Below are positions 23,640 through 28,064 of a stretch of DNA of 64,000 bases, one piece after another (position 1 is the first letter of the stretch; every line of letters begins with the position of its first letter). The stretch lies in contig NZ_FNFZ01000022.1 of assembly GCF_900101015.1 (NCBI RefSeq), positions 1 through 64,000 on the forward strand. The letters run 5' to 3'. The notes under the pieces were generated by a model that saw only the letters and a program-made list of their open reading frames with translations, was not told the origin of the DNA and searched no databases. The position numbers and the translations under genes were made by a program. Source of the stretch: Sarcina sp. DSM 11001. GTDB lineage: Bacteria; Bacillota; Clostridia; Lachnospirales; Lachnospiraceae.

Positions 23640-23777
23640 TGTCCGGCTGCCCGGGATTTTGGGCAGGACATACCTATAAACGGCTGGGGACGGAAAACTG
23701 TCAGTCCGCTGTCCGGGAACAGGGCAGGAGTATTTTTGGCGGACAGGCTTTCCGGCTGTGGATACTGGAGAAATCCC

Positions 23778-24803
23778 ATGGCACAGAAAAAGGAAGATTT
23801 TGCCCAGCAGCAGAAGCTGTTGAATAAAGAATTAAAAGAAGGAAATTTCCGGAGGGTCTATCTTGTATGCGGGACCCAGGCTTATCTGCGCCTGCAGAAC
23901 CGGGACCGGCTCCGCGCGGCACTGCTGGGAGACGGGGACGAGATGAATTTCTCTGTCTATACCGGTATGGATGTAACTGCCAGAGAGGTGATCGACCAGG
24001 CGCAGACGCTTCCTTTTTTTGCGGACAGAAGGGTGATCCTTCTGGAGAATACAGTCTTTTTTTCTAAAAAGGCCAGTGTTGAATCCGATGCTCTTGCGGC
24101 ATTTATACCAGAGATCCCGGAAACAGCGTCTCTTGTTTTTGTGGAGGAAGCCCCGGACAAGCGCAAAAAACTGTACAAGGCTATCCAGAAACACGGATTT
24201 GTGCTCAACTGCGAGGAAATCTCTCCTCAGATGCTGGGGCGCTGGACAGCGGGCCTCTTTCAGAAGGCCGGCCTCGCCATAGACGGACCGGTCCTGAACC
24301 TCTTTCTCCAGACTGTGGGAGAGGATATGATGAACATCCTCACGGAGTCGGAGAAGCTGATCGGTTACTGCATGGGAAAGGGGGCTGTCAGCGGAGAGGA
24401 TATATCGGAAATCTGTACACCCCTTCTCAGAGACAGGGTATTTGAGCTGATCGGGGCCGTATCGCGAAGACAAAAAGACAAAGCTCTCTCAATTTACATG
24501 GAACTGACCGCCCTGAGGACCCCCTCCCAGGTCATCCTGACCCTCCTGCAGAGGGAGTATTCTCGTCTCCAGCAGATCAGGGAACTGCAGGAGCAGAAGC
24601 TCCCGGAAGCAGAGATTGCCAAGCGCACCGGCCTCTCTCCCTGGATCGTCCGAAAAAACTACCTTCCAGTGACCAGGGGAATGGATACCGGGCGCCTCGA
24701 ACGGTCCCTTCAGCTGTGTCTGCAGGCGGACCAGGACTACAAGAGCGGAAAGATCGACGCGGGTATTGCAGCGGAGATGACGATCATCCGGCTGTGCGGT
24801 TAA
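23778..24803 (+). CDS. holA: DNA polymerase III subunit delta HolA
   Basis: 341 residues from ATG 23778, with TGGAGAAA just upstream; a longer in-frame start at 23736 lacks a site. HolA opens the sliding clamp as part of the clamp loader. Conserved stretches include YLVCGTQAYLRLQNRDRL, the ADRRVILLENTVFF segment, ENLLTESEKLIGYC-like helix and the C-terminal FELIGAVSRRQKDKALSIYMEL and LLQREYSRLQQIRELQEQ helices. It follows the RND gene by 138 bp in the same direction. No clear T-tailed terminator separates them. Confidence 0.9.
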   Translation: MAQKKEDFAQQQKLLNKELKEGNFRRVYLVCGTQAYLRLQNRDRLRAALLGDGDEMNFSVYTGMDVTAREVIDQAQTLPFFADRRVILLENTVFFSKKASVESDALAAFIPEIPETASLVFVEEAPDKRKKLYKAIQKHGFVLNCEEISPQMLGRWTAGLFQKAGLAIDGPVLNLFLQTVGEDMMNILTESEKLIGYCMGKGAVSGEDISEICTPLLRDRVFELIGAVSRRQKDKALSIYMELTALRTPSQVILTLLQREYSRLQQIRELQEQKLPEAEIAKRTGLSPWIVRKNYLPVTRGMDTGRLERSLQLCLQADQDYKSGKIDAGIAAEMTIIRLCG

Positions 24804-24985: not shown

Positions 24986-25013
24986 TTGACAAATAGAAAG
25001 AAACTGTTATTAT
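24986..25013 (+). promoter_or_regulatory. Promoter of the ribozyme-nagB-glmM transcript
   Basis: TTGACA (24986-24991) and TATTAT (25008-25013) are 16 bp apart. Transcription from here would give a leader near 595 nt that holds the ribozyme. The stretch from 24804 to 24985 before it is pyrimidine-rich and shows no gene. Confidence 0.7.
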
Positions 25014-25138
25014 ATTTGCATTGTGCAGTTTCAAGTCAGAAAGGAATCTCCAGGCTATGACTTAGATTTCCGGAGATCCGGAAGAGCGGCACAGACAGTA
25101 AAATCGATCCTGCGGGCAGGAGGCCGGAGGAGAACATT

Positions 25139-25281
25139 AGCGCCCGGACCTGAGAAGGTTGACGAGGAATGGCAGTTATCGAAAGATTCGGCGGATGCTG
25201 CCACGGCTAAGAGGACAGCAGCAGACAGGCAGGCTTACGAAAAGACCGGAACAGACCTGTTGCTGTCGACAGACCTGTGAG
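25139..25281 (+). ncRNA. glmS-type self-cleaving ribozyme (glucosamine-6-phosphate sensor)
   Basis: The conserved core is present in order: cleavage context A25139|G25140 followed by CGCCC, an ACCT-GAGA-AGGT stem-loop, GTTGACGAGG (25158-25167), TGGCAG (25170-25175) pairing with CTGCCA (25198-25203), TTATCGA (25176-25182) and ATTCGGCGGATG (25186-25197). The 3' domain has a GACAGCA...ACAGG/CCTGT-TGCTGTC stem (25214-25267). In the known class, glucosamine-6-phosphate is the cofactor for cleavage at the 5' side of G1 and cleavage lowers expression of the downstream gene, normally glmS. Here the next gene is nagB, 335 bp downstream, then glmM. The exact 3' border is approximate. Confidence 0.88.
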
Positions 25282-25382
25282 TCGTCAGAGAGAGGGTAAA
25301 AAGCAGAATCAAGACTGTAACAAAGATTCTCTCAGCACAGAAAAACAGAAAACAGAAATAAAGATTAAAGCAGAAATTATAG

Positions 25383-25430
25383 ATATTTATACATGTTTGA
25401 GCCTGCCCCGGGCATGGCCGCTGGTATAAA
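25383..25430 (+). repeat. Dispersed repeat element, partial copy C
   Basis: TATTTATACATGTTTG, then a GC-rich middle, then GGCATGGCCGCTGGTATAA. This corresponds to the second half of copies A (18730) and B (32375). It lies in the nagB leader between ribozyme and start codon. The rest of 25281-25615 is AT-rich with several possible weak hairpins and no gene. Confidence 0.5.
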
Positions 25431-25615
25431 TAAGATAGTATAAAATAAGATAGCATAAAGAAGAAATTATAAAGAAGAGATAAGAGATTACAGGGAACAG
25501 CGGTACCACAAGTACCACAGCGAAGGCTTTGACTGAAAGGATTCCCTAAAAAGATTTCTTTCACAGAAGTTCCCTGCCGCGCAGCTCCCTGTTATGGAGA
25601 AAGGAAAGATTAATA

Positions 25616-26407
25616 ATGAGAGTAGTCATTCAGGACGATTATAATAAGATGTGCAAATGGGCAGCTGATTATATTGCCGCCAGGATCAATAACCACAAGG
25701 AAGACAGGCCCTTTATCCTCGGCCTTCCTACAGGCTCTTCCCCGATCGGTGTTTATCAGGAGCTTGTCCGCATGAACAAGGCGGGAGAGGTTTCCTTCGC
25801 GAATGTCGTGACCTTCAACATGGATGAGTATCTGGGTCTTCCCCGCGAGCATGATCAGAGCTACTGGTATTTTATGCACTACTATTTCTTCGATCATCTT
25901 GTAGATATGAAGCCGGAGAACATCAACATCCTCAACGGCATGACCGATGATCCTGAAGCTGAGTGCGCGCGCTACGAAGAAAAGATCGCTTCCTATGGCG
26001 GGATCGACCTGTTCATGGGCGGGATCGGCGTCGACGGGCACATCGCCTTTAATGAGCCCTTCACTTCTCTCAATTCCAGGACCGGTGTCCGCAACCTTAC
26101 GACTGATACCAGGATCGTGAACTCCCGTTTCTTTGACAACGATATGGATAAGGTTCCCGCACAGGCTCTGTCTGTCGGAATCGGAACAGTCACTGATTCC
26201 AAAGAAGTCCTGATCCTCATCAACGGTCATAATAAGGCACGCGCTCTTGCCAAGACAGTCGAAGGCGGAGTCAGCCAGCGCTGGACCTGCAGTGCCCTGC
26301 AGATGCACAACAATGCGATCATCGCCTGCGATGAGGAAGCCTGCGGAGAACTGACAGTGGATACCTACAAGTACTTCCTCGATATCGAAAAGAACGAGAG
26401 ACTTTAA
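25616..26407 (+). CDS. nagB: Glucosamine-6-phosphate deaminase NagB
   Basis: 263 residues, full length. The family interconverts glucosamine 6-phosphate with fructose 6-phosphate and ammonia. Active-site residues are all present: D70 in FNMDEY, and D140, H142 and E147 in GIGVDGHIAFNEP; GLPTGSSP (36-43) holds the sugar phosphate. The residues that correspond to the E. coli allosteric phosphate site (Arg158, Lys160) are Gly157 and Arg159 here, so activation by GlcNAc-6-phosphate is doubtful. A glmS-type ribozyme in the leader and glmM directly downstream argue for a biosynthetic setting. AAAGGA 10 bp before ATG 25616 sets the start. Confidence 0.95.
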   Translation: MRVVIQDDYNKMCKWAADYIAARINNHKEDRPFILGLPTGSSPIGVYQELVRMNKAGEVSFANVVTFNMDEYLGLPREHDQSYWYFMHYYFFDHLVDMKPENINILNGMTDDPEAECARYEEKIASYGGIDLFMGGIGVDGHIAFNEPFTSLNSRTGVRNLTTDTRIVNSRFFDNDMDKVPAQALSVGIGTVTDSKEVLILINGHNKARALAKTVEGGVSQRWTCSALQMHNNAIIACDEEACGELTVDTYKYFLDIEKNERL

Positions 26408-26417
26408 TTTTACATTC

Positions 26418-26440
26418 AAGACTCGTTCGCGAGTCTTTTG
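26418..26440 (+). terminator. Hairpin between nagB and glmM
   Basis: AAGACTCG and CGAGTCTT form a perfect 8-bp stem with a TTCG tetraloop, followed by TTG. The short T-run makes it a weak terminator or an mRNA-stabilising element. It also belongs to a small hairpin family seen at 28043 and 41311. Confidence 0.55.
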
Positions 26441-26517
26441 CGCGTATCCCACGGCTGAAGCCATGGTTATTGCGCGATGAAGAATAAATTGAAAACCGCT
26501 TCTATTTGGAGAAAAAA

Positions 26518-27864
26518 ATGGGTAAATATTTCGGAACAGACGGCTTCCGCGGCGAAGCGAACAAGGCCCTGAATTACGAGCATGCGATCAAGATCGGGCG
26601 TTTTCTTGGCTGGTACTATGGCTCCAGGCTTGATAAGAAGGCTAAAGTAGTCATCGGCAAGGATACAAGAAGGTCCAGCTACATGTTTGAGTACGCGCTC
26701 TGCACAGGCCTCATGGCTTCCGGCGCTGATGCCTATATCATGCATGTAACCACGACTCCCTCCGTAGCCTACATTACCCGCGTCGATGATTTTGACTGCG
26801 GAATCATGATCTCGGCCTCTCATAACCCCTTCTACGACAACGGCATCAAGCTGCTTAATTCCTATGGGGAAAAGATGGACGAGGAGACCATCCTGAAGGT
26901 CGAGGCCTATATCGACGGAGAGGTCAAGATCCCTCTTGCCACCGGTGAGGAGATCGGTCGTACTGTGGACTATGTCTCCGGACGGAACAGGTATATCGGT
27001 TACCTGATCTCGATGAGCAAGTTCAGCTTCAAGGACAAGAAGGTCGGCCTCGATGTGGCGAACGGCGCCGCATGGTCCATCGCCAAGGGTGTTTTCGATG
27101 CTCTGGGCGCAAAGACCTATGTCATCAATGCGGAACCTGACGGCACCAATATCAACACCGACTGCGGGAGCACGCATATCGAGCATCTGCAGAAATTTGT
27201 CGTGGAAAAAGGCCTGGATGTCGGTTTTGCCTATGACGGCGACGCGGACAGGTGCCTGTGTGTGGATGAAAAGGGCAATGTGATCACCGGCGATCATATC
27301 CTCTATATCTACGGCCTGTATATGAAAGAGCGCGACAAGCTGATCAACAACACGATCGTCACTACCGTGATGAGCAATTTTGGTCTCTACAAGGCTCTTG
27401 ACAAAGTCGGGATCAACTATGAGAAGACCAAGGTCGGCGACAAGTATGTCTATGAGAACATGGTCCAGAATGGACACCGCATCGGCGGTGAGCAGAGCGG
27501 CCATATCATCTTTACCAAATACGCTACGACAGGCGACGGTATCCTGACTTCCCTTAAGATGATGGAAGTCATGCTGGCCAAGGGCAAGCCCCTCAGCGAG
27601 CTGGCCGCCCCGGTTGTCTTCTATCCCCAGGTTTTGAAGAACGTCCGTGTCAAATCCAAACCGGATGCCCAGAACGACCCCGATGTCCAGCTCAAGGTCC
27701 TGGAAGTCGGCAAGAAGCTGGGTGACGAAGGACGTATCCTTGTCCGCGAGAGCGGCACAGAGCCTGTGATCCGTGTCATGGTCGAAGCGGGATCGGATGA
27801 AATATGCGAGAAATACGTGGATTCAGTGATCGACGTGATCCGTGATAAGGGACATCTGGATTAA
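26518..27864 (+). CDS. glmM: Phosphoglucosamine mutase GlmM
   Basis: 448 residues from ATG 26518, which has TTGGAG 6 bp upstream; the in-frame TTG at 26506 is part of that site. GlmM converts glucosamine 6-phosphate to glucosamine 1-phosphate for UDP-GlcNAc and peptidoglycan. It has the catalytic phosphoserine in ISASHNP (S101), the metal loop DGDADRC, GGEQSGH sugar-binding loop, and the phosphate-binding RESGTEPVIRVMVE near the end. The order MGKYFGTDGFRG at the start is diagnostic. It stands 110 bp downstream of nagB and probably shares the ribozyme-controlled transcript, unless the hairpin between them stops it. Confidence 0.95.
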   Translation: MGKYFGTDGFRGEANKALNYEHAIKIGRFLGWYYGSRLDKKAKVVIGKDTRRSSYMFEYALCTGLMASGADAYIMHVTTTPSVAYITRVDDFDCGIMISASHNPFYDNGIKLLNSYGEKMDEETILKVEAYIDGEVKIPLATGEEIGRTVDYVSGRNRYIGYLISMSKFSFKDKKVGLDVANGAAWSIAKGVFDALGAKTYVINAEPDGTNINTDCGSTHIEHLQKFVVEKGLDVGFAYDGDADRCLCVDEKGNVITGDHILYIYGLYMKERDKLINNTIVTTVMSNFGLYKALDKVGINYEKTKVGDKYVYENMVQNGHRIGGEQSGHIIFTKYATTGDGILTSLKMMEVMLAKGKPLSELAAPVVFYPQVLKNVRVKSKPDAQNDPDVQLKVLEVGKKLGDEGRILVRESGTEPVIRVMVEAGSDEICEKYVDSVIDVIRDKGHLD

Positions 27865-28042: not shown

Positions 28043-28064
28043 CAAGACTAGCGAGCGAGTCTTG
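28043..28064. repeat. CAAGACT/AGTCTTG hairpin, dispersed small element
   Basis: CAAGACT (28043-28049) pairs with AGTCTTG (28058-28064) around an AGCGAGCG loop. Similar hairpins or remnants followed by GAAT or GAA lie at 26418, 41311 and 46201. Confidence 0.5.

Follow-up and report, generated by a model that had tools for sequence, protein, structure and literature searches.

A glmS-class ribozyme ahead of nagB and glmM in Sarcina sp. DSM 11001 and its conservation in related rumen and gut bacteria

Introduction

Among ribozymes that sense a metabolite, the glmS ribozyme is a textbook case, and it is also a target for antibiotics. Which gene does such an element control when glmS is not the gene that comes next, and to what end? 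This question is raised by a stretch of 64,000 nucleotides from Sarcina sp. DSM 11001 (assembly GCF_900101015.1, contig NZ_FNFZ01000022.1, positions 1 to 64,000; hereafter “the window”), in which a ribozyme of this type is followed by nagB and glmM, the genes of glucosamine-6-phosphate deaminase and phosphoglucosamine mutase. A preceding sequence-only reading had proposed that the ribozyme controls these two genes, and that NagB, running in reverse, forms a GlmS-independent entry to the cell wall. The analysis presented here confirms the element as a conserved ribozyme of the glmS class. Its link to nagB is not the oddity of a single genome but recurs in dozens of related bacteria from rumen and gut.

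Identity and structure of the ribozyme

A search with the Rfam model RF00234 (glmS ribozyme) gave a significant match on the forward strand of the window at 25128-25269, covering the full model length; at 47.4 bits (E 6.5e-8) it clears the gathering score of 37. At E 0.001 it is the sole match in the 4.15 Mb genome (G000 in the labelling of loci and genomes used below). The covariance search suggested in the sequence-only reading has thereby come out in its favour, and its description of a clear glmS core is borne out as well, since all the strings it named are present: (i) A|GCGCC with the G at 25140, giving a predicted cut between A25139 and G25140; (ii) GACGAGG at 25161-25167; (iii) TTATCGA at 25176-25182; (iv) TCGGCGG at 25188-25194; and (v) the P2 strands, TGGCAG at 25170-25175 with CTGCCA at 25198-25203. 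The usual companion of the class, a glmS gene directly behind the ribozyme, is replaced here by nagB and glmM.

Comparison with 46 relatives places the true 3' end of the element at about 25333, beyond the 25269 given by Rfam, whose own 3' part runs through the P3 insert of the window copy. The helices P4 and P4.1 were missed by Rfam because this insert of 71 nt hides them, and the insert probably explains the modest score of the window copy too. Inserts in P3 are shorter or absent in many relatives; in the nearest one, L099, whose NagB is 94% identical, P3 is enlarged too. The hairpin of P4 and P4.1 also appears in the free fold of the window RNA, and a 28-base element, AAAAAGCAGAAUCAACACUGUAACAGAG and its variants, is the mark of P4.1 in 47 nagB-linked ribozymes.

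These 47 copies, all distinct, with an intact core and located ahead of nagB, comprise 38 from NagB loci of GTDB, eight from a survey of the family and the window itself; L085, which coincides with L128, has been left out, as has L098, in which the GCGCC strand is gone. The GCGCC strand is kept in 47/47, and standard pairs occur in 46 or 47 copies at P1 positions 0-3, throughout P2 and P2a, and at P3 positions 0-3 (P3_4 pairs in 44/47); the copies were collected through Rfam, hence the conservation of the core is partly a selection effect. Compensatory pairs are found across the set in P1, P2, P3 and P4.1; both strands vary at, among others, P1_1, P2_0, P2_1, P3_3 and P4.1_2. All 47 copies pair at P1_1 (shuffle mean 25.3, maximum 33), P2_0 (mean 38.6, maximum 42) and P4.1_2 (mean 36.4, maximum 41), and the columns of P1, P2 and P4.1 do not depend on any choice of the best-pairing strand.

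Distribution among relatives

In the family survey RF00234 matched in 60 of 299 genomes, 59 times above the cut-off. The ribozyme precedes glmS in 49 of them and nagB, glmM or acetyltransferase genes in the other 11, all of which, although found by the ribozyme search alone, have nagB (as a fragment in G257, and cut by the contig end in one more). From a scan of GTDB for NagB the best 80 loci were taken, to which all statements on GTDB loci in this text refer. A ribozyme lies ahead of nagB, on its strand, in 38 of these, among them L099 at 36.4 bits, just below the cut-off of 37. Divided by NagB identity, the ribozyme is present in 38 of the 63 loci at 78% or more and in none of the 17 at 71-76%; two genomes of the latter group (G367 and G375) carry a ribozyme elsewhere, that of G375 preceding glmS. 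On the NagB tree all 39 ribozyme-bearing rows (38 from GTDB and the window) fall within one group of 60 rows. The ribozyme label needs 11 changes on this tree (shuffles: 28.0); a single gain followed by numerous losses would produce such a count, but is not thereby proven.

Three further genomes show unusual arrangements. In G257 (L220, 3700-5934) the nagB match ends at codon 111, a reading frame for a DDE transposase comes next, the ribozyme is without its GCGCC strand, and glmS is intact in the same genome; nagB and ribozyme are thus both decayed. The metagenome-assembled genome G342 (L142/L215 and L212), which may be mixed, contains two glmS ribozymes, one at nagB and one at glmS. In G367 (L213, 4232-4386, reverse strand) a ribozyme of 74.5 bits overlaps the 3' end of a phosphohexomutase gene (glmM-like) and faces a convergent purL-like gene; with no sense gene after it, it is possibly a 3'-UTR (untranslated region) ribozyme or the product of an assembly join.

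Genes after the ribozyme

Both genes named in the sequence-only reading, nagB and glmM, score above the curated cut-offs of their families (Table 1), and that assignment stands. The gap between the ribozyme and the first gene has a median of 52 nt over the 47 loci (range 29-294). The most frequent order is ribozyme-nagB-acetyltransferase-glmM (19/47), followed by ribozyme-nagB alone (9/47), ribozyme-acetyltransferase-nagB-glmM (5/47), ribozyme-acetyltransferase-glmM-nagB (4/47) and the ribozyme-nagB-glmM of the window, L099 and L147 (3/47); the other seven loci have different orders, and some of the 47 loci lie on short contigs. Altogether glmM is found in 36 of the 47 loci and a GlmU-like acetyltransferase in 34. 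In five loci glmS adjoins or lies inside the nagB cluster, and nagB and glmS seem to be under one switch in L160 (ribozyme-glmM-nagB-glmS) and L138 (ribozyme-acetyltransferase-nagB-glmM-glmS). In L104 (4811-6735) ribozyme and nagB are followed, about 15 nt on, by yvcK/glmR (TIGR01826, 268.3 bits), an arrangement that ties nagB to a regulator of cell-wall precursors binding uridine diphosphate N-acetylglucosamine (UDP-GlcNAc). GlmR stimulates GlmS in Bacillus subtilis (PMC7525490).

The acetyltransferase of the operon is a hexapeptide-repeat protein of 220 aa that fits the C-terminal part of TIGR03992 (E 2.5e-41), under the cut-off for the full length. It may be the working enzyme in many genomes, because full-length GlmU was found above the cut-off in only four of the 51 genome entries searched, all four among the 47. 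In the window genome a GlmU match on contig C26 was considered for this role and set aside, as it belongs to a different protein of 380 aa with no Pfam family at E 1e-5.

Table 1. Features of the ribozyme locus in the window.
Feature	Coordinates	Strand	Details
Promoter-like site	24986..25013	+	TTGACA-16-TATTAT, TG before second hexamer; 11/12 positions
glmS-class self-cleaving ribozyme, whole element	25130..25335	+	Rfam match, extended to P4 using 46 relatives
Catalytic core	25140..25203	+	GCGCC, P1 (25147-25151/25156-25160), GACGAGG, P2, TCGA/TCGGCGG
P3	25204..25284	+	CGGCU 25204-25208 / AGUCG 25280-25284 around the 71-nt insert
P4 and P4.1	25290..25333	+	P4 25290-25297/25326-25333; P4.1 25303-25306/25315-25318; signature AAAAAGCAGAAUCAAGACUGUAACAAAG at 25298-25325
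Leader, ribozyme to nagB	25334..25615	+	280 nt
nagB, glucosamine-6-phosphate deaminase	25616..26407	+	263 aa; TIGR00502, 381.9 bits (cut-off 236.9)
glmM, phosphoglucosamine mutase	26506..27864	+	452 aa from TTG 26506, in-frame ATG 26518; TIGR01455, 536.9 bits (cut-off 447.55)

The gene preceding the window ribozyme is holA (23736-24803). The region holds five promoter-like sites where shuffling leads one to expect 3.7, so that the site in Table 1 is in itself weak evidence. Between nagB and glmM of the window lies a hairpin, AAGACTCG-TTCG-CGAGTCTT (26418-26437), which might weaken the co-transcription of the two genes; a terminator-like repeat of similar letters follows glmM at 28043-28064. 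Downstream of nagB no glmM, acetyltransferase or glmS was found within 4.2-6 kb in L094, L101, L108, L118 and L150, and in L094 a gene for an alanine symporter comes after nagB. Three loci, L102, L072 and L153, have glmS on the upstream side of the nagB operon; in the first two the ribozyme stands between them and may also shape the 3' end of the glmS transcript.

GlmS and NagA in the same genomes

The window genome has an intact glmS (contig C53, 16960-18792; 759.5 bits), an open reading frame of 612 aa starting with MCGIVGYIG, and the whole-genome RF00234 search at E 0.001 gave no ribozyme for it. The separate glmS that the sequence-only reading proposed to look for does therefore exist, and it is not one with its own ribozyme. 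Among relatives glmS is above the cut-off in 13 of the 13 family genomes checked and matches at E 1e-40 in 49 of the 63 genomes of the NagB clade, in 47 of them above the cut-off; of the 38 genomes with a ribozyme at nagB, 31 have such a match. Two glmS matches were obtained in the genome of L123, Ruminococcaceae bacterium P7. The claim of a GlmS-independent route has thus to be given up, and NagB would be a second entry rather than the only one.

Genomes without GlmS were considered among the remaining 14 of the 63 (seven of them among the 38), which may owe the lack to missing sequence, so that no loss is claimed. A looser search of the 14 revealed a piece of glmS at a contig edge in G330. 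G299, G313, G322, G325 and G347 gave a match of about E 1e-31 that covers residues 1-225 and presumably represents PurF; the remaining nine of the 14 have no such match.

The gene nagA was searched for in 51 genome entries, of which G234 and G328 are the same and G257, G260 and G267 are without an intact ribozyme-nagB pair. Matches in 24 of the entries ruled out the absence of nagA as a proof of the direction of NagB. Among the genomes of the 47 copies none was found in 26, many of which are metagenome-assembled and may be incomplete. In the window genome nagA (contig C45; L218, 117-5878) lies between a gene for a fusion of ammonium transporter and PII and a large glutamine-synthetase-like gene, a setting which hints at a coupling of amino sugars to ammonia.

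NagB protein

In the alignment of 81 NagB rows D72, D141, H143 and E148 (Escherichia coli numbering) are kept throughout, whereas S151, R158 and K160 are replaced by T, G and R in every row. From structural work on the E. coli enzyme, the former are taken to be catalytic and the latter to hold N-acetylglucosamine 6-phosphate (GlcNAc6P). These replacements suggest a NagB subfamily that probably lacks activation by GlcNAc6P. The change of Arg158 to Gly was rejected as a mark of a biosynthetic NagB, as it is also present in 17 of 17 distant NagBs without a linked ribozyme. The window NagB scores 342.3 bits with 7lqm, 321.4 with the E. coli chain 1cd5 and 195.8 with 2bkv, the last presumably being NagB of B. 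subtilis.

Proposed mechanism and alternative explanations

The preferred explanation, which is held with reasonable though not high confidence, is a working ribozyme in the nagB-glmM leader under feedback by glucosamine 6-phosphate (GlcN6P), with NagB aminating beside GlmS. GlcN6P is the cleavage cofactor of the known glmS ribozymes and their cut mRNA decays (PMC11477304). By the same scheme, plentiful GlcN6P would lead the RNA to cut itself between A25139 and G25140, upon which the downstream mRNA would be degraded, and with scarce GlcN6P the mRNA would survive and NagB and GlmM would be made. At least under ammonia-rich conditions NagB would aminate, converting fructose 6-phosphate and NH4+ to GlcN6P, and GlmM would carry this product into UDP-GlcNAc synthesis beside the ordinary glutamine-dependent GlmS. 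Free ammonia is plentiful in the rumen and would favour amination.

Both the regulation and the operon argue for this direction of NagB. Lowering NagB and GlmM at high GlcN6P makes sense if NagB supplies GlcN6P, most of all in L138 and L160, where nagB and glmS seem to have one switch. The operon fits a NagB making GlcN6P too, because it so often includes the acetyltransferase, in five cases adjoins glmS and in L104 places yvcK/glmR after nagB; this content is that of UDP-GlcNAc biosynthesis and speaks for NagB as a GlcN6P synthase that uses ammonia and is subject to feedback by GlcN6P. Among further points in favour of the explanation are the 26 genomes in which no nagA was found, the five loci in which nagB follows the ribozyme with none of these partner genes found, and the joint decay of nagB and ribozyme in G257. 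For the Clostridia group as a whole, the balance tips slightly towards a second ammonia-fixing amino-sugar entry, in which reversed NagB, GlmM and a stand-alone GlmU-like acetyltransferase would act successively from one operon. A ribozyme that senses GlcN6P and was captured from glmS would hold this operon; the route would run alongside GlmS, which some members may even lack.

Several observations weigh against this explanation. With a GlmS in most relatives and in the genome of the window too, NagB is not needed as the sole synthase; the window genome has one NagB only, and NagB could serve catabolism of N-acetylglucosamine in the 21 of 47 ribozyme-nagB genomes, that of the window included, in which nagA is found. 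The loss of Arg158 is common to all 81 NagBs, ribozyme-linked or not. The NagB of Akkermansia makes GlcN6P poorly, with a Km for NH4+ of about 41 mM, and was judged physiologically unable to do so (PMC5902328). In the window the gap of 98 nt with a hairpin between nagB and glmM makes co-transcription less sure, and the acetyltransferase is outside the operon. On the side of the RNA, the free energy of the window copy is only modestly under that of shuffled sequences, 7 of 200 of which reach it (z -1.96), and pairs are weak at P1_4 (24/47) and P4.1_0 (40/47, shuffle mean 44.5). Moreover, the search word dictated positions 0-2 of P3, whose partner strand is the candidate that pairs best, and P4, with 4 to 10 pairs, is the longest helix found, taken without a control. 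As for distribution, 25 of the 63 close NagB loci have no Rfam match at the locus, L117 and L126 having less than 500 nt upstream; the group on the NagB tree has moderate support (84/95), and the tree is rooted at its midpoint.

Some of these points would also suit a ribozyme acting for all of the biosynthetic genes together (those of GlmM, the acetyltransferase and sometimes GlmS), NagB being a two-way buffer near equilibrium without net synthesis. The frequency of glmM (36/47) and of the acetyltransferase (34/47), the presence of GlmS and the 21 genomes with nagA are all in line with such a buffer. Nevertheless, this explanation is rather unlikely: nagB is there in 47/47 loci, in part since 38 of them were sought by NagB, it is present in each of the 11 non-glmS cases found by the ribozyme alone, with the fragment and the cut copy counted, and in the five loci from L094 to L150 listed above it is the only one of these genes to be found after the ribozyme. 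If NagB were instead the ordinary catabolic deaminase, as it is usually known, the ribozyme would stop it at high GlcN6P and spare this metabolite for the cell wall in a positive feedback. The occurrence of nagA in the window genome and in 21/47 overall agrees with catabolism, but little would be gained from a catabolic enzyme that its own substrate shuts off, 26 genomes, many of them possibly incomplete, gave no nagA, and nagB and glmS seem to share a switch in L138 and L160; the probability assigned to this explanation is accordingly low.

Regulation may also run the other way, with cleavage raising expression by removal of an inhibitory leader or by a stable 3' product, so that GlcN6P induces a catabolic nagB. 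The direction of regulation is unreadable from sequence, and the leader of the window is long, with 280 nt past the ribozyme. Such induction is nonetheless very improbable, since the same subtype precedes glmS in G260 and G088 and also stands before operons that hold glmS, where induction by the product would be a runaway, and the median gap of 52 nt leaves little space for a further device. That the element is a non-cleaving relic of a glmS gene that once came after is hardly credible: its Rfam score is below that of most family members and ribozymes of the same subtype do precede glmS in G260 and G088, but the core strings are intact in 47 copies (partly by selection through Rfam), the compensatory pairs speak for maintenance, the low score fits the P3 insert, and the group has kept the element. 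The feedback-controlled, aminating NagB remains the preferred explanation.

Should NagB be reversed, it would provide a glutamine-sparing route into peptidoglycan in ammonia-rich gut bacteria, the NagB annotations there would be misleading, and GlcN6P analogues directed against the ribozyme would strike a different gene set. That a whole bacterial group has retained the sensor on another natural target, an enzyme filed as catabolic, also offers an independent test of ribozyme logic.

Origin and comparison with known systems

The P4.1 signature of the nagB-linked set differs from that of the glmS-linked ribozymes of G260 and G088 at 3 and 7 of the 28 positions, respectively, and from the remaining 47 glmS-linked copies of the family survey at 10 or more. 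On these counts the simplest history would have one ribozyme subtype move between the nagB operon and glmS. In one group of rumen and gut Clostridia the nagB operon probably acquired its ribozyme from the leader of a glmS gene and retained it, with repeated later losses. No report of a glmS ribozyme at nagB was found in the literature covered, which consisted mostly of titles and the beginnings of abstracts, with the main survey of the class outside its scope. Priority is not certain, because McCown et al. in 2011 reportedly placed all but two of the glmS ribozymes then known in glmS mRNAs.

With the B. subtilis type of RF00234 the element shares the core, the P1-P4 layout, the A|GCGCC cut site and a position within the 5' leader, ahead of a gene of amino-sugar metabolism. 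There are also clear differences, which relate to its position before nagB or nagB-acetyltransferase-glmM, the distinct P4.1 signature and, in the window, the P3 insert of 71 nt. The glmS-linked ribozymes of the family (49/60) are of the same RNA family, but they precede glmS.

A NagB-type enzyme working backwards has precedents. Mutants of E. coli in glmS are said to have been rescued by the catabolic isomerase (Vogler et al., in 1989); in those laboratory mutants as in the wiring proposed here the enzyme would run in reverse, here naturally and under a ribozyme. Aminating deaminases have reportedly been described from archaea (Tanaka et al., in 2005), and the archaeal type, with a TIGR03992 acetyltransferase and an aminating deaminase, uses the same parts for a UDP-GlcNAc route. 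In contrast to the archaeal type, the system described here is bacterial, its acetyltransferase is without the uridylyltransferase half, its operon is led by a ribozyme, and GlmS is also present. The resulting pair of an ammonia-fixing and a GlmS route side by side would resemble the coexisting ammonia- and glutamine-dependent enzymes of asparagine synthesis, and the ribozyme itself belongs to a known class, which an entire group of bacteria has retained on a new target.

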